IMG/VR virus record: IMGVR_UViG_3300020204_000471
Coordinates: 1-20,149 of that record
DNA from: a virus
Reading direction: 5' to 3' (one strand)
Length of the DNA: 20,149 nt
Translations under genes and position numbers: made by a program
The notes under the pieces: generated by a model
The model's database searches: none
The model's input: the letters and a program-made list of their open reading frames with translations, nothing else
Told to the model about the DNA's origin: nothing
Part shown: piece by piece, positions 2,372 through 18,733 of the stretch
How positions within the stretch are numbered: the stretch's first letter is position 1
Layout: the number at the start of each line of letters is the position of its first letter

Positions 2372-2550
2372 GGTAGTAGGGGTGGAATAACTCCAATAAG
2401 CCTTAATAGTCCTTCGGCAAATAAAGCGAGAACTAACCAACCAACGCACATAGAAATAATGGAAGCATTTCTATTGTGCCTTCGTATAGCAGCATCAATC
2501 ATCTCCTGGACTTCAGTTCTTGTAATAAATTCTTCTTGCTCATGCATCAT
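2347..2550 (-). CDS. 67-residue membrane protein with amphipathic N-terminus
   Basis: The soluble N-terminus (MMHEQEEFITRTEVQEMIDA) is acidic and helical and leads to a basic patch (RRHNRN). A hydrophobic helix follows at about residues 31-58, and the C-terminus is Pro/Leu-rich. GGAG lies 7 bases before the ATG, and the start overlaps the upstream stop by an ATGA junction. No domain is recognised. It is consistent with a small inner-membrane protein translated together with its neighbours. Confidence 0.72.
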   Translation of the reverse strand: MMHEQEEFITRTEVQEMIDAAIRRHNRNASIISMCVGWLVLALFAEGLLRLIGVIPPLLPWLKITLP

Positions 2551-2696
2551 TTTTCATCTCCAAGAAACTTTGCAAGTGGGTCAACTTTAGTTTTCACTAT
2601 TGCACAAGCTCTTTTGTAAAACATATTGTTTGTATTGCCAGACTGTTCAAAGATTTCCTTTATCTTCACCCAATTGTCGTAGGTGCGTTGATCCAT
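2547..2696 (-). CDS. 49-residue basic hypothetical protein
   Basis: This soluble, Lys-rich protein begins MDQRTYDNWVKIKEIFEQSG and ends KTKVDPLAKFLGDEK. Its last codons encode the ribosome binding site of the next gene (GGAG in CTT GGA GAT), and its stop overlaps that gene's start. The 105 bases before it (2697-2801) hold no gene and are very AT-rich, so a promoter for the membrane-gene and gnd operon probably lies there, but no box matches well enough to annotate. No function is recognised. Confidence 0.65.
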   Translation of the reverse strand: MDQRTYDNWVKIKEIFEQSGNTNNMFYKRACAIVKTKVDPLAKFLGDEK

Positions 2697-2801
2697 AGAG
2701 TTAAGATTGAATACTATGAATAATACTAGTTATATTACTCAACATCTTCATATAAGAAGTTTGTGTTGATACAAAAATATATATTAAGAGAATATTAATT
2801 T

Positions 2802-3053
2802 TTAACGAATTTCAAAATCTAACTTTCTAATTTTTCGATTTCTTCTTGCTTCTTGGTACAGTAAATCCTCTTTTGTTAGAACATTTTTAGAGTCTTTAGA
2901 TTTATTCAAACTAATTATTTCTACTAGAGAAAGGTCTACTGCACTGATTTTTTCATTTGTAATTGTAGTCAAATTAGCACATCCACAACACTTTGTTTGT
3001 GTTGAATGAGCTTCCAACTCTGTATTACAATTTTTGCATCTTACTTTTAACAT
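2802..3053 (-). CDS. 83-residue zinc-ribbon-like protein
   Basis: The N-terminal third has a CxxC pair (MLKVRCKNCNTELEAH, Cys6 and Cys9) and a second cluster, TKCCGC, around residues 21-25. This is the pattern of a small zinc ribbon. The remainder is charged, with a Lys/Arg-rich end (EARRNRKIRKLDFEIR). From memory, proteins with this start are common in T4-like cyanophages, with no known role. Nucleic-acid or protein binding is an inference from the ribbon. The gene lies directly downstream of tRNA-Gly, and the ATG has only a weak purine-rich AAAGAA before it. Confidence 0.72.
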   Translation of the reverse strand: MLKVRCKNCNTELEAHSTQTKCCGCANLTTITNEKISAVDLSLVEIISLNKSKDSKNVLTKEDLLYQEARRNRKIRKLDFEIR

Positions 3054-3078
3054 TTCTTTATTCTATGTAACAACAATA

Positions 3079-3149
3079 ATCGGACAACGAGGATCGAACT
3101 CGTGATTTCAACTTGGAAGGATGACGTGTTACCTCTACACTATGTCCGC
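3079..3149 (-). tRNA. tRNA-Gly, anticodon UCC
   Basis: The 71 bases fold as a tRNA. The D-stem is GTGT/ACAC with the GG loop, the anticodon loop is CTTCCAA (anticodon TCC at positions 34-36), the variable loop has 4 bases, and the T-arm is ACGAG-TTCGATC-CTCGT. The acceptor stem pairs at positions 2-7 (CGGACA/TGTCCG). Two defects stand out: position 1-72 is G-A, and position 30-40 in the anticodon stem is T-T. CCA is not encoded. The tRNA would read GGA (and perhaps other GGN) codons and supplement the host pool for the AT-rich phage genome. Confidence 0.9.
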
Positions 3150-3165
3150 AATAATAATTAACAAG

Positions 3166-3192
3166 GGGGGAGAATCTACAACAAACTCCCCC
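3166..3192 (-). terminator. Intrinsic terminator after the lysozyme-like gene
   Basis: A 7-bp perfect stem (GGGGGAG/CTCCCCC) has a 13-base loop. On the minus strand it follows the lysozyme stop by about 15 bases and precedes a T-rich run (TTGTTAATTATTATT) that leads into the tRNA. The T-run is interrupted, so it may terminate only partly, or it may instead act as a processing boundary for the tRNA. Confidence 0.55.
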
Positions 3193-3207
3193 ACTATATT
3201 CAGTTTG

Positions 3208-3873
3208 TCAAACTTCTACCGTAATCAGTTTGTTAGCATATTCATTGGCATAATATGTACGTGAACCATGAATACCCCAACCAATCCAACTGTACGCATA
3301 GTCCATGTAACGATTGATAGATTTTCCAGGAGTTTTCATTCTATCTTCAATTCGTTTCCATTGAACTTCATTGGTCAGATAACGAAGTTGCGTATCGAGA
3401 GTTGATGGAGAACCACCATATCTCTTAGCAAAATCACCCAATCCATAATAACGATTGGCAGATGTCCATTGAATCAGACCATAACCACGTCCGCAGTGAT
3501 GGTACTGAGTCTTACTACCACCTTCACAAATATTAGGCACGAACATAGATTCCTGCTTAATATTCCCTAGGATGGTAGCTAGGGCGTTTCTGTCTTTGAT
3601 TCCTTGCTGTTGAAAATAATCTACAGCAAGTTGTTCATGTTCTGAACACCCTTTACAAATTAGCCTTTTCTCTTTTGGCTTTTCGGGAGCAACCTCTCGG
3701 ATTGCTGTCTTCTTTTCATCTACAAGATTCATTTCTTTAATCTCATTCAAGGATATTTTTTGCTCCACTGGTGGAGGTGATCCTTGCATCTTGTAGTTGA
3801 CGAATGGCAGTGTTGCCGCATTGGTTGTAACCGTTGCCAGAAGAGGCAGGGCTACAGTAAAGATGTTTTGCAT
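3208..3873 (-). CDS. Secreted phage tail-lysozyme-like peptidoglycan hydrolase
   Basis: The 221-residue protein has a signal-peptide-like N-terminus (MQNIFTVALPLLATVTTNAA, cleavage probably near residue 20), a Lys/Glu/Pro-rich linker (about 30-72) with a CKGC pair, and a C-terminal catalytic domain. ATILGNIKQES (99-109) with Glu108, the GRGYGLIQWT segment (128-137) and the LDTQLRYL helix (159-166) match the phage tail lysozyme fold (Phage_lysozyme2). The likely role is cleavage of the glycan of host peptidoglycan during entry or lysis, and export is inferred from the signal sequence. A structured leader and a promoter-like TATAAT precede the gene and a terminator follows. No Shine-Dalgarno sequence is visible. 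Confidence 0.82.
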   Translation of the reverse strand: MQNIFTVALPLLATVTTNAATLPFVNYKMQGSPPPVEQKISLNEIKEMNLVDEKKTAIREVAPEKPKEKRLICKGCSEHEQLAVDYFQQQGIKDRNALATILGNIKQESMFVPNICEGGSKTQYHHCGRGYGLIQWTSANRYYGLGDFAKRYGGSPSTLDTQLRYLTNEVQWKRIEDRMKTPGKSINRYMDYAYSWIGWGIHGSRTYYANEYANKLITVEV

Positions 3874-3895
3874 TAAAATTAATTGAACTCTACAT

Positions 3896-3944
3896 CCGTA
3901 TAGAGAAAGCGCACTTCCCCTTTCTCAAGGGGCAATCTCCACGG
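3896..3944 (-). promoter_or_regulatory. Structured RNA leader upstream of the lysozyme-like gene
   Basis: Nested complementarity is seen: outer CCGT/ACGG, middle GAGA/TCTC, and an inner perfect hairpin CCCCTT-GAGA-AAGGGG, separated by small internal loops. The element lies in the 131-base gene-free stretch between the 65-residue gene and the lysozyme-like gene, 23 bases before its ATG. No T-run follows, so it is unlikely to be an ordinary terminator. It may control translation or mRNA stability of a potentially toxic gene. The fold was judged by eye. Confidence 0.45.
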
Positions 3945-3979
3945 CTCTAATTTCACTTCAAAATCTCATAATATATTTC

Positions 3980-3985
3980 ATTATA
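3980..3985 (-). promoter_or_regulatory. Probable -10 box (TATAAT) for the lysozyme-like gene
   Basis: A perfect TATAAT lies about 107 bases before the lysozyme-like start, in the gene-free stretch. The expected -35 position has only TTAAGT, a weak match. The box is followed by the structured leader at 3896-3944. It would fit a host-sigma promoter, but the AT-rich background makes this uncertain. Confidence 0.4.
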
Positions 3986-4004
3986 AGTGATTATTTATTT
4001 TGAC

Positions 4005-4202
4005 TTAAAAATCGCAAAAATAACCACTTATATACCCAAGAGAAATTACTTCAAGATTTTCTTTTTGAATTACCCAATCTCGAATCTCACTATAGACACT
4101 TTCAGCATCTTTAATTCGACCCTCATCACACAATTCGTGCATACGATTAATATGCTGCTCAATTAGTGTGTTGCAAACTTTTTTAACTTTTAGGTCATTC
4201 AT
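4005..4202 (-). CDS. 65-residue hypothetical protein
   Basis: This small helical, charged protein begins MNDLKVKKVCNTLIEQHINR and ends VISLGYISGYFCDF. Its start overlaps the end of the GIY-YIG-like gene by 8 bases, so the two are probably co-translated. No membrane segment and no domain are recognised. The segment DEGRIKDAESVYSEIRDWV resembles a helical repeat, but this is too short to classify. Confidence 0.62.
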   Translation of the reverse strand: MNDLKVKKVCNTLIEQHINRMHELCDEGRIKDAESVYSEIRDWVIQKENLEVISLGYISGYFCDF

Positions 4203-4626
4203 TAAAGTAATCCTTCCGATAGTATCTTCCTAGGACATTAGAATTATAATACGCAGGAGTCCCATCGTCAAGTGCCTCAGTCAAGACGTTATTTACAAAG
4301 AGTTGTCTGGTTTCTTCATAGTTGCATTTTCCTTTTGTCTTATGGAGGCTAAGTATTCTTCTGTCACAGGATGCTTTTCCCCAAGTGTTAACATCTGCTT
4401 TAAGTTCTGGACAGGATCCGTAATACTTTTTCCAATCAGACTCTGACTTAACTTTTCTAGATTTTCCTGTTGGTTTGCGGAAACTCCAGAAATACTTTCG
4501 ACCAATATAACTACGACCAGTTTGACGGCAATGTATGAAATATACAAAACCAAAATAATCTTGAATATCAGAAGACTCAAAAATTTCCCCATTGTAGATC
4601 CAGGGATTCTCATAACTCATAACCAT
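4195..4626 (-). CDS. GIY-YIG-like endonuclease family protein
   Basis: The 143-residue protein carries GFVYF (residues 26-30) followed ten residues later by YIGRK (40-44), which is the GIY...YIG signature with the conserved Arg43. A candidate catalytic Glu lies in CNYEETRQLF (105 or 106) and an Asn in AYYNSN. Similar free-standing proteins are annotated in T4-like phages as SegE-like nucleases. The WIYNG start and SDWKKYYGSCPELKADV segment look like that family. It may nick DNA as a homing-type nuclease or serve as a domesticated nuclease. The start could be Met1 or Met3, and neither has a clear Shine-Dalgarno sequence. A CTAAATA box lies shortly upstream (about 4644-4650). Confidence 0.72.
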   Translation of the reverse strand: MVMSYENPWIYNGEIFESSDIQDYFGFVYFIHCRQTGRSYIGRKYFWSFRKPTGKSRKVKSESDWKKYYGSCPELKADVNTWGKASCDRRILSLHKTKGKCNYEETRQLFVNNVLTEALDDGTPAYYNSNVLGRYYRKDYFNE

Positions 4627-4697
4627 TAGTTTACTTTGAGCTATTTAGAACCTAGAATAATCTTGAAACTCCACAGAGTTATTTTACTCATAAAAAA

Positions 4698-4718
4698 ACA
4701 CCCCCGTCAAGAGGGTGT
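4698..4718 (-). terminator. Rho-independent terminator after the 569-residue virion protein
   Basis: The minus strand reads ACACCCTCTTGACGGGGGTGT: a stem of ACACCC with GGGTGT and one further pair past a mismatch, around a small loop. Seven T residues follow immediately. It lies 23 bases after the stop of the large gene. Confidence 0.85.
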
Positions 4719-4741
4719 AGAATTTTGTTGGGATTTAAAAA

Positions 4742-6451
4742 TCAACGACCGAAATTTGGTCCAGGATTTCTATTTTTATTTTCAAGATTTTTAGCACCTT
4801 GCTGCATAACTTGAGAACGAGTTTGACCTCCCCTTTCTGCTGCAGATCCACCACCTGCACCATAGGTTGTTAATCTACCACTATCATTGCGACTTGCTGG
4901 TTTTGCAAATGGTGAAGATGCAGTTGGTCCTGGTTTTGGAGTTGGTTTTGCTGACTGCATCTGTGCTGCTCTGCTTGCACGAGCCTTATCTCTCAATCCA
5001 CCAAACCACTCTCCAGGTGCTTCAAGAAGAATTTCTTCCAACCATTTATCACTCATATTTTCAATGATTACATTTGCATCATTTAGAGTTTCTGCAAAGT
5101 TGTTCTCTAGAAGATACGATACTACAATCTCATAAATTTGATACTCTTCACCCAGTTGCTTCTTCTCTTTTGGTGTTAAAGTTCCAGCAGACATTGCAGA
5201 ACTTCTTGCTGATTGTAGGTCTCTATCAGAACCTTCAACCTTAGCAGCATAACCTCTAAGACTTACTCTAGGTTTATCTCTTACTGAACCTCTTCTTGAT
5301 GATGCAAGACCTCTTAAAGTTCTACTTTGATTCTCTTCTCTCTTCTTTCTATCCTCTGAAGACTCATCACGTTTGTGCTTGATATAGGGACGGGCAGCAC
5401 CTCTTTCTGCTGCTTCGATGGTCTTATCTACACTACCAGAACGTTTGAATGCTTTGGAACGTGCTGCAAGTTCCTTACGGGTTGCAATCTCACCTTCTTT
5501 ACCAAGTTCCTTACGCATTCTAGTTGCTTCATCTAGTTCATACTCTTCATTGTATTCTTTGTTTTTAACTGCTGCGATTGCTTCTGCTCTTGACATTCCA
5601 GATGCAATCATTCTTGCAATTCTTACATCTGCAAAGTCATTATCACCATCTTGGTCTTGGTCTTTTTTCTTTCCTTCATAGATTGAGGAATATAAGTTCG
5701 AAACATCCTTGATTGTTGACATAGTTCCCCATTCGAATGAACTCATCACCGCACCTGGTTTTTTGATTGGTGACGTTGAAGGTGTTGGTTTTGCTTGCTG
5801 TGCTTGTTGTGCTGCAAGAGCACTACCAGCAGGTGCTGGTTTATTTAGTACTTCTGGTTTATTTGCTGCTTCTACATCCTTTCTAACACTTGTAATATTA
5901 GCACCAGTTACATTTGCACCTTGCTGTCTCATTTGAGATGCCTTCTGCATGTCCCTCAACTCTGCAGCTTGCTGAGACATCTTACTTTGTCCCGTTCCTT
6001 TCTGAGTTCCATCAGAATTTACTTTTGCAGCAAGTTTTGGATTTGCTGCTGCCCAGGTTGCTTTTCCTGTTGCTTCTGCTCCTTTTATATCTCCAGACTT
6101 AATCTGAGACTTATAAACATCAAGTCCACCTTTGATTTTTTGTGCAGTTGTTGCATTCGCAGGTGACGATGTTCCTGGTTTTGCAGGTTTAACAGAAGTT
6201 GGTTTTGCCCCAAGAGCAGTAGCAGCAGTTGGACCTGCTAGATTTCTAGCAGTTGCCTGAAGACCTAATCTATTTGCAGTCTCTCTACTTCTAGCAAATA
6301 TATCTGGTTTTGATGTTGTCGGTTTTGCCTTTTCTGGTCCTGCTGGTTTGTTATCACCTGGACCATCCCAAAGTGGTTCGTCTCTCAAAGGAGCTTCATT
6401 AATAATACTTTCATATAAATTTTTAACCGCACCAAAATCTTCCTTATTCAT
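4742..6451 (-). CDS. Large modular probable virion (internal head) protein, 569 residues
   Basis: The sequence is low-complexity and rich in Ala, Lys, Pro and Gln, with several conserved modules, as in cyanophage structural proteins. The N-terminus contains SIINE-AP (residues 15-21), which resembles a T4 prohead-protease site (I-x-E before a small residue). Residues 15-235 are a Pro/Ala/Lys linker region. A second module starts at Met244 (MSTIKDVSNLYSSIYEG, site after Glu259). It is followed by an Asp-rich, calcium-loop-like DQDQDGDNDF (264-273) and a short helical module, VRIARMIASGMSRAEAIAAV. A basic region (310-435) leads to a helical module, IYEIVVSYLLENNFAETL, ending in ILLEAPGEW (474-482). 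Virion packaging is inferred. GATAAATA and AATAAATA boxes lie upstream. Confidence 0.7.
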   Translation of the reverse strand: MNKEDFGAVKNLYESIINEAPLRDEPLWDGPGDNKPAGPEKAKPTTSKPDIFARSRETANRLGLQATARNLAGPTAATALGAKPTSVKPAKPGTSSPANATTAQKIKGGLDVYKSQIKSGDIKGAEATGKATWAAANPKLAAKVNSDGTQKGTGQSKMSQQAAELRDMQKASQMRQQGANVTGANITSVRKDVEAANKPEVLNKPAPAGSALAAQQAQQAKPTPSTSPIKKPGAVMSSFEWGTMSTIKDVSNLYSSIYEGKKKDQDQDGDNDFADVRIARMIASGMSRAEAIAAVKNKEYNEEYELDEATRMRKELGKEGEIATRKELAARSKAFKRSGSVDKTIEAAERGAARPYIKHKRDESSEDRKKREENQSRTLRGLASSRRGSVRDKPRVSLRGYAAKVEGSDRDLQSARSSAMSAGTLTPKEKKQLGEEYQIYEIVVSYLLENNFAETLNDANVIIENMSDKWLEEILLEAPGEWFGGLRDKARASRAAQMQSAKPTPKPGPTASSPFAKPASRNDSGRLTTYGAGGGSAAERGGQTRSQVMQQGAKNLENKNRNPGPNFGR

Positions 6452-6487
6452 CTTACCGAGGGTAGTAAAAAGTACTCTTTATAAATA

Positions 6488-6506
6488 TATTTATTCTTTA
6501 TTTATC
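6488..6506 (-). promoter_or_regulatory. Candidate late promoter boxes for the 569-residue gene
   Basis: On the minus strand two near-consensus T4-type late boxes follow each other: GATAAATA (6499-6506) and AATAAATA (6488-6495), 37-55 bases before the start codon. Each has one mismatch to TATAAATA, in the first base. They lie in the short gap between two genes. Confidence 0.45.
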
Positions 6507-6519
6507 CTTAGTACTATTA

Positions 6520-6924
6520 TTAATTAGTACAATCAATTACCCAAGGAGCACAAATTCGCATCTCTCCACCAAGCAGTTTTTGTGCCTCACTGCCATCTGG
6601 TGCTTTCTCAACATACTTTGGTTTATATCTTTTATTAGACTCAGCAATGATACGGTCATACTCAGGTGTGACTTCATCAATTGCTCTGGTTACATCTCTC
6701 TCAGCCCTACGCTTTACTTGGTTAGGGTCTTGAAGAATAAGTTCATTAAGAATAGTTTGTGGGAAATATTTTCTTTGAATCTCGTCCAGTAAGTCCCATA
6801 GTCCATTTTCGGATACTCCTGTGCATTGAGATAATGTAGATATTACTATAGAACAAATCACACTTACAACAATGATTTGTTTTTTGTCTGGTTTTTTATT
6901 TCCAAATGAAAAATTAAACTTCAT
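6520..6924 (-). CDS. 134-residue membrane-anchored or exported conserved protein
   Basis: The N-terminus is basic (MKFNFSFGNKKPDKKQ), followed by a hydrophobic helix (about residues 17-33) and TLSQCTG, and then a soluble domain. The Cys after the helix resembles a lipoprotein cysteine, but the -1 residue is Gln, so the lipobox is poor. The soluble part includes LWDLLDEIQRKYF and ERDVTRAIDEVTPEYDRIIA. It ends in a Cys-containing tail, RICAPWVIDC. I recall similar proteins as conserved hypotheticals in cyanophages. A role at the cell envelope is inferred only from the anchor. The start has no Shine-Dalgarno sequence and lies inside the 11-codon ORF 6914-6949, which may couple its translation. 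Confidence 0.72.
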   Translation of the reverse strand: MKFNFSFGNKKPDKKQIIVVSVICSIVISTLSQCTGVSENGLWDLLDEIQRKYFPQTILNELILQDPNQVKRRAERDVTRAIDEVTPEYDRIIAESNKRYKPKYVEKAPDGSEAQKLLGGEMRICAPWVIDCTN

Positions 6925-6949
6925 TATAAAATTCTAAAAAAGTTTTCAT
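6914..6949 (-). CDS. 11-codon ORF encoding a capsid-targeting-like peptide
   Basis: The ORF reads MKTFLEFYNEV then stop. It begins 1 base after the stop of the 822-residue gene and overlaps the start of the 134-residue gene. The peptide matches the N-terminal capsid-targeting sequence of T4 internal proteins (M-K-T-Y-x-E-F-I-x-E-A) at the Met, Lys, Thr, aromatic, Glu, Phe and Glu positions. It may be the remnant of a lost internal-head-protein gene, or a leader peptide that couples translation to the next gene. Chance cannot be ruled out for so short an ORF. Confidence 0.4.
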   Translation of the reverse strand: MKTFLEFYNEV

Positions 6950-6950
6950 A

Positions 6951-9419
6951 TCACTTTGCTGGTTTTGGTGGTTTTGCTGGTGCTGCTGGTTTTTGTAATG
7001 CTTGGAAACTTCTGTTTCCTTGTGCATCATACTTAACAGAACCTTTTACTCCACCCAAAGTTGCTCCATAAGACTGTCCAACTTTTGCTTTTCCTGCTTT
7101 AACTTGATTAACACCAGCATTACCAATGTTTGCACGAATCATTCTCTGACCCTTATCACCATAGGTTGCAGTTCCTTTTTTACCACCAACAGTGACATCA
7201 TATGCTTTATTTGTAGTTACTTTTTGCTGCTTACCTGCAATATTTGTTGCGGTTATAACTTTATTTGGTTTTGTGTCAGATGGACCTGCTTTACCAGTTC
7301 CTTCTTGTGGTGGAGTATTTCCAACTTTTGGTTTCGATCTCAATGCTGCCATTCCTGCTGCTTGAACTTGCTGTCTATTCATTCCTGGTTTTAAAGCTAA
7401 AGCAGCATTTCCACCACCAGCACGGAAGGCAGCATCACCACCTCTTCCAGAATCTGCAGTTATTGATGGTTTTGCTTTTGCTTTTTCTGGTCCTGCTGGT
7501 TTTGGTGCTTTGTCCATACTATCTACATGAGAAAATCCAGTACTTGATTTTCTAACACCAGCACGAACAGAAGGCTCAGCAGACTTTTCTGCAGATGGTG
7601 CAAGATATTCCCCTGCAGATTTAGCAGTATTGGAAACTTTAGTAACAAATTTTCCCATATTACTATCCCAAAATTTTGCCTGCCCTCCAGGTGCTTCAGA
7701 AATGAACTGCTTCCAATATTCATAAGCAGTCATTTCCTCACCCATATTCTTTCTTGCTTTCTTTCTAGCACGTTGCTTTTCCTTGGTAGTCTTTTGTGGT
7801 CCACCAGTGCTTCCACCCTTTGTTGCTTGGAAAGAACGAACCCTTGATTCTCCAGAACTATCTGGTGCAACCATATGAGTTTTGATTGTTTTTGATGTTG
7901 GATTATCTTGCTTTTCTTTCTCAAATGCCTTATGGACTTTAGCAGCATCATCATACATATGGGTAGTCTTAGCACCACTTTGCTTTGCTACTGCATTAGC
8001 AACATCAACTTTTTTCTTACCAATATCACCACCTCTCATTCCACCAGTATAATGAATATTAGACTTTTCTACATCAATTCCGTGCTTCTTTAGATGTCCT
8101 TGGAATTCACTTGGATTATCAAACTTTGAACGAGCAGTAATCAAGTGAACGTTTTGTCCTCTTGCTTGCTTTCTCTTGATATCTTTAATTACTTTTTTAT
8201 TTGGACTTGAAGTTTTAGAGAATGTCTTAGCACTCTGGAACTCACTAAAATCATACTTATGTCCTGGTTTTAGTTTATGGGTATTGAATTCTTGATTACT
8301 TAAACTCTGAACTCTCTTCCCAGATTCATCATTTACGTGAACCTGAACGTTTGGTTTTCCTTTTTTACCGTGCCCAAAAAGGGTTTCATCAACATCATAT
8401 GCGTGAACTGTTGTCTTCTTTCTAGTTCCTCTTGCCTTTTCTTCAATATATTCTTCTAGAATTACTGAAGTGAACTCATCACTAATGTGCTCAAACATTA
8501 CTTCTGCTGCTTCATAGTCTTCTGCATAATCAGCAGCAACTAACATTTCAATAATATAATCATAAGCATCATCAAAGTCAAATGATTGATTTAGTTGCTT
8601 CATTGCATCATTAAGTGCATTGTTGCGTTTCTGAATTCCATATGCAGCACCAGCAATGCCTGTTCCTGGATTCTTAATTTGTTTGCCTTTATTTGCTGCA
8701 TCCACTCCAGACTTTGCTGCTTGTTTTGCTCTATTAATTGCCATCCCTGCAAGTGCGGCACCACCTAGAGCAAGTCCACCAGCAACTAGAGGAGCAACCT
8801 CATCGAGTTGCTCACCTTCTGGTTCAAATGAATTTGCCATTGCTTGCTTGCGGATGGTTGCAAAGTAAATTTGAGTTCCTCTTTCCTTTCCGTATTGGTC
8901 TATCATACTCTTCTTCATTGCTGAAGTGTCATACTTATTCTTAAGTTTCTTCTCTTTTTTAATTTCTGAAGAGGTCATTTCTCTTTCTGCAATATATTCT
9001 TCCTTTTCAAACTCTTGATAAAATGCAGCAGCCTCTCCGTGTCTACCTTCTTTAGTTGATTTTTTACTCATATCCAGAAGTTCCCTTTTAGAATATTTGT
9101 GTCCTTTAAGAATAGATGACATCTCATCTTTACTCATACCTTTTGCTTCATCAACCATTTCACCATCTAGTTCATAACTAGCAACTTGCATTCCTGCTTT
9201 TGCTTTTGCTAGTGGAAGTTGTGGACCAGTTCTTTTTAAAAACTGTTCTTTTTCATTTGGATTGTCAGTCCTTGATCCTTTATTATATAACTTCTGAGTC
9301 TTCTGTGCATCTTTATGCCCAGGTCCAATATCAAAACTTGCCTCAGAAAGGAGAGTCCCCTTTGTTTCAGAAACTTTAATTTGGGTATATAAGTCTTTTA
9401 TATCGTTAATGCTGGACAT
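6951..9419 (-). CDS. Large modular probable virion protein with embedded HAD-phosphatase-like domain, 822 residues
   Basis: The N-terminus MSSINDIKDLYTQI is followed by LLSE-A (23-27), which fits a prohead-protease site. Next come a module with YGKERGTQIYFATIRKQAM (176-194), a Gly/Ala-rich hydrophobic helix (208-230), and a helical module FDDAYDYIIEMLVAADYAED (282-301). Residues 335-515 form a HAD-like domain: motif I is DVDET (342-346), motif II is LITAR (Thr428), the Lys is at 468-470, and motif III is MYDDA (Asp490/491). A second head-like motif, MTAYEYWKQFISE-APGG, starts at Met563. The end is a Lys/Pro/Ala linker with two 25-residue repeats. A phosphatase acting on nucleic acid or nucleotides is plausible, since all HAD motifs are present, but the substrate is unknown. 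It is driven by the late promoter at 9442-9449. Confidence 0.72.
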   Translation of the reverse strand: MSSINDIKDLYTQIKVSETKGTLLSEASFDIGPGHKDAQKTQKLYNKGSRTDNPNEKEQFLKRTGPQLPLAKAKAGMQVASYELDGEMVDEAKGMSKDEMSSILKGHKYSKRELLDMSKKSTKEGRHGEAAAFYQEFEKEEYIAEREMTSSEIKKEKKLKNKYDTSAMKKSMIDQYGKERGTQIYFATIRKQAMANSFEPEGEQLDEVAPLVAGGLALGGAALAGMAINRAKQAAKSGVDAANKGKQIKNPGTGIAGAAYGIQKRNNALNDAMKQLNQSFDFDDAYDYIIEMLVAADYAEDYEAAEVMFEHISDEFTSVILEEYIEEKARGTRKKTTVHAYDVDETLFGHGKKGKPNVQVHVNDESGKRVQSLSNQEFNTHKLKPGHKYDFSEFQSAKTFSKTSSPNKKVIKDIKRKQARGQNVHLITARSKFDNPSEFQGHLKKHGIDVEKSNIHYTGGMRGGDIGKKKVDVANAVAKQSGAKTTHMYDDAAKVHKAFEKEKQDNPTSKTIKTHMVAPDSSGESRVRSFQATKGGSTGGPQKTTKEKQRARKKARKNMGEEMTAYEYWKQFISEAPGGQAKFWDSNMGKFVTKVSNTAKSAGEYLAPSAEKSAEPSVRAGVRKSSTGFSHVDSMDKAPKPAGPEKAKAKPSITADSGRGGDAAFRAGGGNAALALKPGMNRQQVQAAGMAALRSKPKVGNTPPQEGTGKAGPSDTKPNKVITATNIAGKQQKVTTNKAYDVTVGGKKGTATYGDKGQRMIRANIGNAGVNQVKAGKAKVGQSYGATLGGVKGSVKYDAQGNRSFQALQKPAAPAKPPKPAK
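6999..7205 (-). repeat. Two 25-residue repeats in the C-terminus of the 822-residue protein
   Basis: Residues 739-763 (AYDVTVGGKKGTATYGDKGQ...) and 783-807 (SYGATLGGVKGSVKYDAQGN...) align over their whole length with the pattern Y-x-x-T-(V/L)-G-G-x-K-G-(T/S)-x-x-Y-(G/D). They start 44 residues apart. They look like short beta-rich units, perhaps a binding or trimer-like tail, divergent at DNA level and therefore not recent copies. Confidence 0.65.
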
Positions 9420-17575: not shown

Positions 17576-18733
17576 TTATTTATAGTTTTTAGTAGAAACT
17601 GAGGACTTTTTATTTCTACCAACTAAAAAATTTTTAACTTTTTCTCCAGGTGTAACAGATTGAACATACTCCCTATATTCATCTGTTCCAATCTCATACA
17701 CCTCTCTAACATCTTTTAACCAACTCTTAAACATAAGATTGTCTTCCGTTACGCAAATCAAGTAATTTGCACCTCTTCTAATTATTTTTCCAACTAATCC
17801 ACTATTTACATTTTCAACAAAAGTCCCAACACCAAAAAGATTATTATTTTTATAATTCCACCTCAATCCATCGTAATCAAACTCTGGTTCTATTCTCCAT
17901 GCCTCAGTAGATTCACTAACACTCATGGACTTTTTAAGAGTATTAAAGAGTTCTTTTTTCTCTCCTGGGTCCATTGATGTAGGCAATCCAGCCCCAAATT
18001 TATAAAAATCATTCATAGCAACAGCAGCTTTCATTAAAGCAGAAGAACCAGGTGATTCCACTTCACTATCTGGATCTTTTACTCCTGCGGTGATTACTTC
18101 CAAATTGGCAAATTCATATCCCTGTCCTTCTGCTTTATGCACTAAACTTTGAAATTCACCGAGTCTTTCTTGACCTACAACTAATACGACATCACTATAC
18201 CCATCACCATAAAGAGATTCAAGAATATCAAATATAGTTTTTGCATCTTCATTATCAATGATATAATCACCATATTCAGGAAACATAGATTTCATATACG
18301 AAATCTTTAATGTAGGATTTAAAGGATTGGAAGTAGAATCTTGAATTCTGCTTGGATAGATTCTATATTCAAATCCTCTACGTTTTGCTTCAGAAAATCC
18401 TGCTTTTAATAATTGCTGATGATTTTTTGATGGTGGGTTAAATCTACCAATAACAACAACCACACCCTTTGCTTCTTGAGGTTGTTCTTCTTGCTCTGGA
18501 GAGGTATTTACCTGCTGTGATTGTTTTATTTCCTCTCCTGGTACTCCATCTTTAGACGTAGTATCTCCCTGACCGTAGAATTTCAACTTACCATTAACAG
18601 TTTTCGCTACAAAATTTCCTTGTTTGTCGTACCAATCCCCATGACCGTTACCGACAAGTCCACGATTCTTTGCTTCGGTAGATGCCAAGGTCTCTACTGC
18701 TTCTCTGAAAAAATTAGCAAAACTCTTCATCAT
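17576..18733 (-). CDS. Nucleotidyltransferase-domain protein with targeting-like N-terminus, 385 residues
   Basis: The N-terminus MMKSFANFFREAVETL resembles the T4 capsid-targeting sequence (cleavage would follow Glu11, though the -3 residue is Phe rather than Ile or Leu). Residues about 25-55 hold GNGHGDWYDKQGNFVAKTVN. The central domain (89-245) is a cytidylyltransferase-like fold: VVVVIGRFNPPSKNHQQLL (91-109), with Asn104-His105 in place of the (H/T)xGH motif, a VVLVVGQE strand (182-189) and SPGSSALMKAAV (227-238) in place of the ISSTxxR motif. A C-terminal KOW-like beta domain (300-345) includes VGKIIRRGANYLICV. The Arg of ISSTxxR is not obvious, so catalysis is uncertain. It could attach or activate a nucleotide in the injected cargo. 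Both ATG codons of MMKSF are usable as starts. Confidence 0.8.
   Translation of the reverse strand: MMKSFANFFREAVETLASTEAKNRGLVGNGHGDWYDKQGNFVAKTVNGKLKFYGQGDTTSKDGVPGEEIKQSQQVNTSPEQEEQPQEAKGVVVVIGRFNPPSKNHQQLLKAGFSEAKRRGFEYRIYPSRIQDSTSNPLNPTLKISYMKSMFPEYGDYIIDNEDAKTIFDILESLYGDGYSDVVLVVGQERLGEFQSLVHKAEGQGYEFANLEVITAGVKDPDSEVESPGSSALMKAAVAMNDFYKFGAGLPTSMDPGEKKELFNTLKKSMSVSESTEAWRIEPEFDYDGLRWNYKNNNLFGVGTFVENVNSGLVGKIIRRGANYLICVTEDNLMFKSWLKDVREVYEIGTDEYREYVQSVTPGEKVKNFLVGRNKKSSVSTKNYK
17577..17584 (-). promoter_or_regulatory. T4-type late promoter (TATAAATA) of the 537-residue gene
   Basis: A perfect box overlaps the last two codons and stop of the upstream gene (TAT AAA TAA). It lies 28 bases before the ATG. 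A coding end doubling as a promoter shows how compact the late region is. Confidence 0.78.

Follow-up and report, generated by a model that had tools for sequence, protein, structure and literature searches.

An eleven-codon reading frame in a T4-like cyanophage as the probable scar of a lost gene with a capsid-targeting type of leader

Genes and reading frames at the locus

The DNA analysed here, called the window throughout, is a stretch of 20,149 nucleotides from a T4-like cyanophage (IMG/VR record IMGVR_UViG_3300020204_000471). The upstream gene (6951..9419, minus strand) encodes a protein of 822 residues with an N-terminal leader, MSSINDIKDLYTQIKVSE, that resembles a capsid-targeting leader (CTS); it contains a DVDET..LITAR domain, HAD-like by motif and with a weak match to a PHROG polynucleotide kinase, and carries an internal leader-like motif, MTAYEYWKQFISE, directly followed by APGG and a swapped segment. 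The downstream gene (6520..6924, minus strand) is intact and encodes a 134-residue protein of unknown function belonging to PHROG 3316. It is common in cyanophage contigs, where its neighbours are usually different, among them the contigs of more distant relatives; in many of the loci L013-L080 the 134-like gene starts right after a terminator-like hairpin (GGGGAGT..ACTCCCC-TTT) that itself holds the Shine-Dalgarno-like GGGGAG. Next in the cluster is a gene of 569 residues (4742..6451, minus strand) with the CTS-like leader MNKEDFGAVKNLYESIINE before an alanine, and at 17576-18733 a gene of 385 residues with PHROG cytidyltransferase matches begins with the leader-type N-terminus MMKSFANFFREA.

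The feature under study is a mini-ORF of eleven codons, MKTFLEFYNEV (6914..6949, minus strand), read from the sequence itself. Past the last codon (AAG) of the 822-residue gene the minus strand runs TGA T ATGAAAACTTTTTTAGAATTTTATAATGAAGTTTAA, which places the ATG of the mini-ORF one base beyond the upstream stop; the ATG of the 134-residue gene (6924) lies inside the mini-ORF in a different frame. The reading frame, the one-base spacing and the overlap with the next gene, all described in an initial annotation of this DNA, are borne out by the minus-strand sequence.

T4-type phages use a short leader to pack proteins into the head, from which they are ejected into the host, and several known cases act against host defence. 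The T4 leaders have the form M-K-T-aromatic-x-E-F and end at a glutamate cleavage site. The T4 internal proteins carry propeptides of 10-19 residues, and ten residues of IPIII suffice for targeting; within that leader residues 4 and 7 are the most important for targeting, and 8 and 10 for processing (PMC9026906). The CTS motif M-K-[TS]-[FY]-x-x-[FY] is present at the N-terminus of the mini-ORF, as it is at 27 distinct N-termini of the cargo family described below. First-order Markov random sequences with the dinucleotide composition of the window are expected to yield 0.14 Met-starts of the type M[KR][TS][FYW]xx[FYW] per window, both strands counted. Two occur in the actual sequence, the mini-ORF and MKSFANFFREA of the 385-residue gene, and the leader match of the mini-ORF exceeds chance. 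The prohead protease site, for which the T4 motif L/I-x-E before a small residue was taken for comparison, is absent from the mini-ORF, which reads Y-N-E-V, and the Y-E-E-A found at the cleavage position in two intact relatives (L087 and L089) is only a relaxed form of it.

An intact gene at the same junction in relatives

With the last 116 residues of the 822-residue protein as query, four contigs with a matching junction were found, all of which have a full gene there, of 201 residues in L087 and in L086 (identical in that stretch), 195 in L089 and 199 in L088. Three distinct relatives (L086/L087, L089 and L088/L104) thus carry an intact gene of 195-201 residues, which in two of them opens with MKTFLEFYEEAS, again a single base past the upstream stop. 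The initial annotation had suggested that a gene for a packaged protein was lost and only its targeting leader remained, and had proposed to look in related phages for a full-length gene beginning MKTFxEF at this very place; precisely such a gene is present in the closest relatives. The first 23 bases of this cargo gene counted from its ATG (ATGAAAACTTTTTTAGAATTTTA, aligned to 6927..6949 on the minus strand) are identical in the window and in L086, L087 and L089, and this identity in three contigs with the intact gene settles the homology of the mini-ORF. At its 3' end the cargo gene overlaps the start of the 134-residue gene in the same three contigs.

Aligned to these relatives, the window lacks one clean block of sequence, which opens at codon 8 of the cargo gene and closes near the start codon that follows. 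The distance from the start of the cargo gene or mini-ORF to that of the 134-residue gene is 25 bases in the window, 602 in L087 and 585 in L089; the net loss is 577 bp by comparison with L087 and 560 bp by comparison with L089, neither a multiple of three. The same two contigs place the deletion junction at 6925..6927 (minus strand), where TTTTA is joined to TAATGAAG. Residues 1-7 and two bases of codon 8 are inherited from the cargo gene; four junction codons then carry the frame to a stop within the 134-residue gene, 8 bases past its start. Glu10, one of the seven matches to the T4 consensus counted earlier in eleven positions, does not descend from the leader: like Val11, it is written by DNA at and behind the junction (..TA joined to TAATGAAGTTTAA). 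The homology at the junction itself amounts to at most about two bases; an AATTTT repeat of 6-7 bases lies close by but out of register, and the longest exact repeat by the breakpoints is 6-7 bases. The junction also creates a perfect -10 hexamer, TATAAT (6923-6928, minus strand), which overlaps the start codon of the 134-residue gene and is probably a product of chance. Beyond the leader, no further cargo remnant was found elsewhere in the window.

The lost protein and its genomic home

The cargo family was aligned from 32 relatives, 14 of the close branch and 18 of S-PRM1-like and other branches. Its leaders mostly follow the form MK[TS][FY]xxFCx[ED]A, with 27 distinct forms, and its core conserves D-x-G-x-F-G and a following Asp. 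Modelled from this alignment, including the S-PRM1-like branch, the cargo has a predicted double-psi beta-barrel fold with a mean pLDDT of 78.8; an alignment of 15 close sequences had given a poor model (pLDDT 57.7), which was set aside. The best PDB match by Foldseek is 4avr (PA4485; E 3.6e-6, TMt 0.77), and other structural matches include part of a baseplate protein of cyanophage A-1(L), kiwellins, expansins and RlpA-like phage proteins. According to this model the lost protein combined a T4-style CTS with an RlpA-like double-psi beta-barrel behind it. At the level of sequence the match is suggestive: the Pfam lytic-transglycolase/PF03330 profile is matched below its curated cut-off in 5 of the 32 members (best E 0.041) and not at all in the rest, so membership of the RlpA family is not claimed. 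Searches of Pfam, PHROG and PDB sequences with a single cargo protein gave no match, nor did PDB profile searches with the cargo alignments; the 3D-domain (PF06725) and DPBB_1 (PF03330) are absent from the window itself, and no cellular relatives of the cargo were found in GTDB contigs. In L254, L257 and L255 the cargo core follows short leaders of other kinds, namely FSEFINEA, FKEFVTES and MKTFNEFIKET, each before a glutamine.

The major capsid and tail-tube genes flank the cargo gene in S-PRM1, in DSL-LC03 and in most of the more distant contigs, and these copies are mostly preceded by CTAAATA, which closely resembles the late promoter NATAAATA reported for S-PM2 (PMC2984593). The head-gene locus and the late-promoter-like motifs belong to the copies between capsid and tail-tube genes and do not extend demonstrably to those at the window's junction. 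The lost cargo was probably a packaged late head protein, and by analogy with the T4 internal proteins we infer that it would have been targeted to the head, cut by the prohead protease and packaged. Contigs bearing it at the window's junction have one copy each and are fragments; as the window is a fragment too, the same phage may have another copy at its capsid locus.

Origin and possible use of the remnant

The direction of change was read from a tree built on 205 residues of the upstream gene, a segment that corresponds to the DVDET domain; contigs L089, L086 and L087 appear in it as L122, L126 and L129, respectively. The window is sister to L122 (SH-aLRT 95), L126 and L129 come next, and all three have the cargo gene; since its sister carries the gene, loss on the window's own branch is the simplest history. 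With high confidence, the mini-ORF can be regarded as a deletion scar, the front end of a lost gene of about 195-201 residues. The ancestor would have had the 822-residue gene, the cargo gene of about 195-201 residues and the 134-residue gene in a row, the cargo gene starting one base past the first stop and its own stop overlapping the start of the third gene. The DNA beginning with codon 8 of the cargo and reaching roughly to the 134-residue start codon would then have been lost, either by deletion or by recombination with a neighbour lacking the cargo, with at most about two bases of homology at the junction; seven leader codons would have stayed behind, prolonged by four junction codons up to a chance stop. 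At several other loci the 134-like gene follows the upstream stop after 2 bases or overlaps it, with neither cargo nor mini-ORF, and in L124, L132, L139 and L159 it starts at a TAATGA that resembles the window junction; loss through recombination with a cargo-less genome is therefore as possible as a simple deletion.

The converse history, with an original mini-ORF behind which the relatives acquired a cargo, would fit the patchy presence of cargo at this junction but is the least probable reading, because such a leader heads the cargo family in nearly every locus with a known N-terminus, including the capsid locus of other phages, and because the window nests, with moderate tree support, among cargo-bearing contigs. 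It is also very unlikely that the population has the full cargo gene and that the assembly wrongly joined its flanks. The window is a metagenomic contig and no independent contig spanning the junction was found, L032 (IMGVR 3300020220_002869) being identical to window positions 2523-6828 over 4,306 bp and ending about 100 bp short of it; but such a collapse needs a shared word of assembly length, and misassembly is improbable because the intact relatives share at most 6-7 bases at the breakpoints. A targeting function of the eleven residues on their own, as a minimal peptide, would agree with the sufficiency of the first ten residues of IPIII and the key role of positions 4 and 7 (PMC9026906), both Phe here. 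This is nevertheless highly improbable, as a leader without cargo brings nothing into the head and the scar accounts for the peptide; moreover, no other eleven-codon, leader-only MKT[FY]xEFxxE ORF was found in IMG/VR, where 12 of 12 matches to the pattern read Trp rather than stop. A DNA scan of IMG/VR for the exact peptide MKTFLEFYNE likewise gave no match and hence no second copy of the remnant.

A further proposal concerns use and is compatible with an origin as a scar: the remnant may be kept or used as a translational coupler, ribosomes finishing the 822-residue gene, restarting one base on, stopping 8 bases past the 134-residue start and restarting there. In the initial annotation this rested on the missing ribosome binding site of the 134-residue gene, and indeed neither its start nor that of the mini-ORF is preceded by a Shine-Dalgarno match, which makes coupling plausible, although the same is true of many genes in the window. 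The overlap of the cargo stop with the 134-residue start in intact relatives points the same way, as does the unbroken chain of abutting reading frames that the scar maintains over its 25-base gap. On the other hand, cargo-less relatives have the 134-like gene 2 bases past, or overlapping, the upstream stop without any mini-ORF, other relatives start it after the hairpin, where coupling is not evident, and the mini-ORF occurs in one genome only; we consider retention or use as a coupler rather unlikely. If the mini-ORF is a deletion scar, as we favour, translation probably still passes through it, while the remnant by itself most likely does nothing and would have no packaging role today.

Leaders as possible exchange joints for head cargo

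The initial annotation had further regarded the junction as a possible cargo exchange site. At the junction itself only the presence or absence of one cargo family is seen and no swap of different cargoes, but one gene upstream the idea finds a better case. Most relatives of the 822-residue protein (most rows of L123-L175) end with EEM[ST][AS]YEYWKQFI[DK] and a stop, a leader-like tag at the end of the protein and not at its start. The leader-like motif instead runs on as ..FISE before APGGQAKFWDSNMGKFV.. in the window and as ..FINE before ASDPKKDVGARMG.. in L087, and the two proteins rejoin further on. The segment APGG..FWDSNMG.. stands behind YEYWKQFISE in the window and behind unrelated leaders of the form MNK..LxALxxLY..LxE in other phages, and behind both it is joined exactly at the predicted cleavage glutamate; the loci available for this comparison are window 6951-9419, L087, L144, L153, L158, L204 and L205.

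These sequence comparisons support a putative exchange of cargo at a leader boundary one gene away from the mini-ORF. It is a tentative generalisation, which we hold somewhat more doubtful than not, that the CTS leaders of T4-like cyanophages serve as joints for the exchange of head cargo, with recombination adding or removing cargo segments at or near the boundary between leader and cargo. If so, leaders would outlive and swap their cargoes, and the window would show two steps of the process, a stripped leader (6914-6949) and the swap of the APGG segment; the cargo repertoires of cyanophages would then be readable from any contig by a scan for leaders, with or without cargo.

Comparison with known systems

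In the literature searched, capsid targeting and cyanophages appear together only in a review of T4. In the present case a leader can be linked to a cargo family of recognisable fold, to the place which this family usually occupies beside the capsid gene, and to the loss of the cargo from one lineage. Like IPI, IPII and IPIII of T4, the lost gene had a short N-terminal leader of the same form before a variable cargo, and the T4 genes are dispensable and polymorphic (PMC9026906, PMC3012670, PMC12373910); unlike them, the leader in the window stands without cargo, and the lost cargo is a predicted RlpA-like beta-barrel that has its place in the capsid operon of other cyanophages and was presumably packaged. 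The predicted fold, the D-x-G-x-F-G motif and the Asp are shared with RlpA-like double-psi beta-barrels (PF03330; 4avr; expansin and barwin folds), from which the lost cargo differs in its phage capsid leader and in a PF03330 match that is below threshold or absent.

The closest parallel to the event is laboratory-evolved T4, in which ipIII was lost in three populations in compensating deletions, with rearrangements between microhomologies, and the evolved phage no longer infected one host strain (PMC9391042). In both cases a CTS-bearing internal-protein type of gene was lost; in contrast to the T4 deletions of 0.7-6 kb (PMC9391042), the loss in the window is natural, comprises about 0.57 kb and has its breakpoint within the gene, with the leader codons kept. 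A breakpoint inside the leader is unusual and informative: the loss of internal-protein genes is a type of event already known from T4, and the window is an unusually clear natural example of it.
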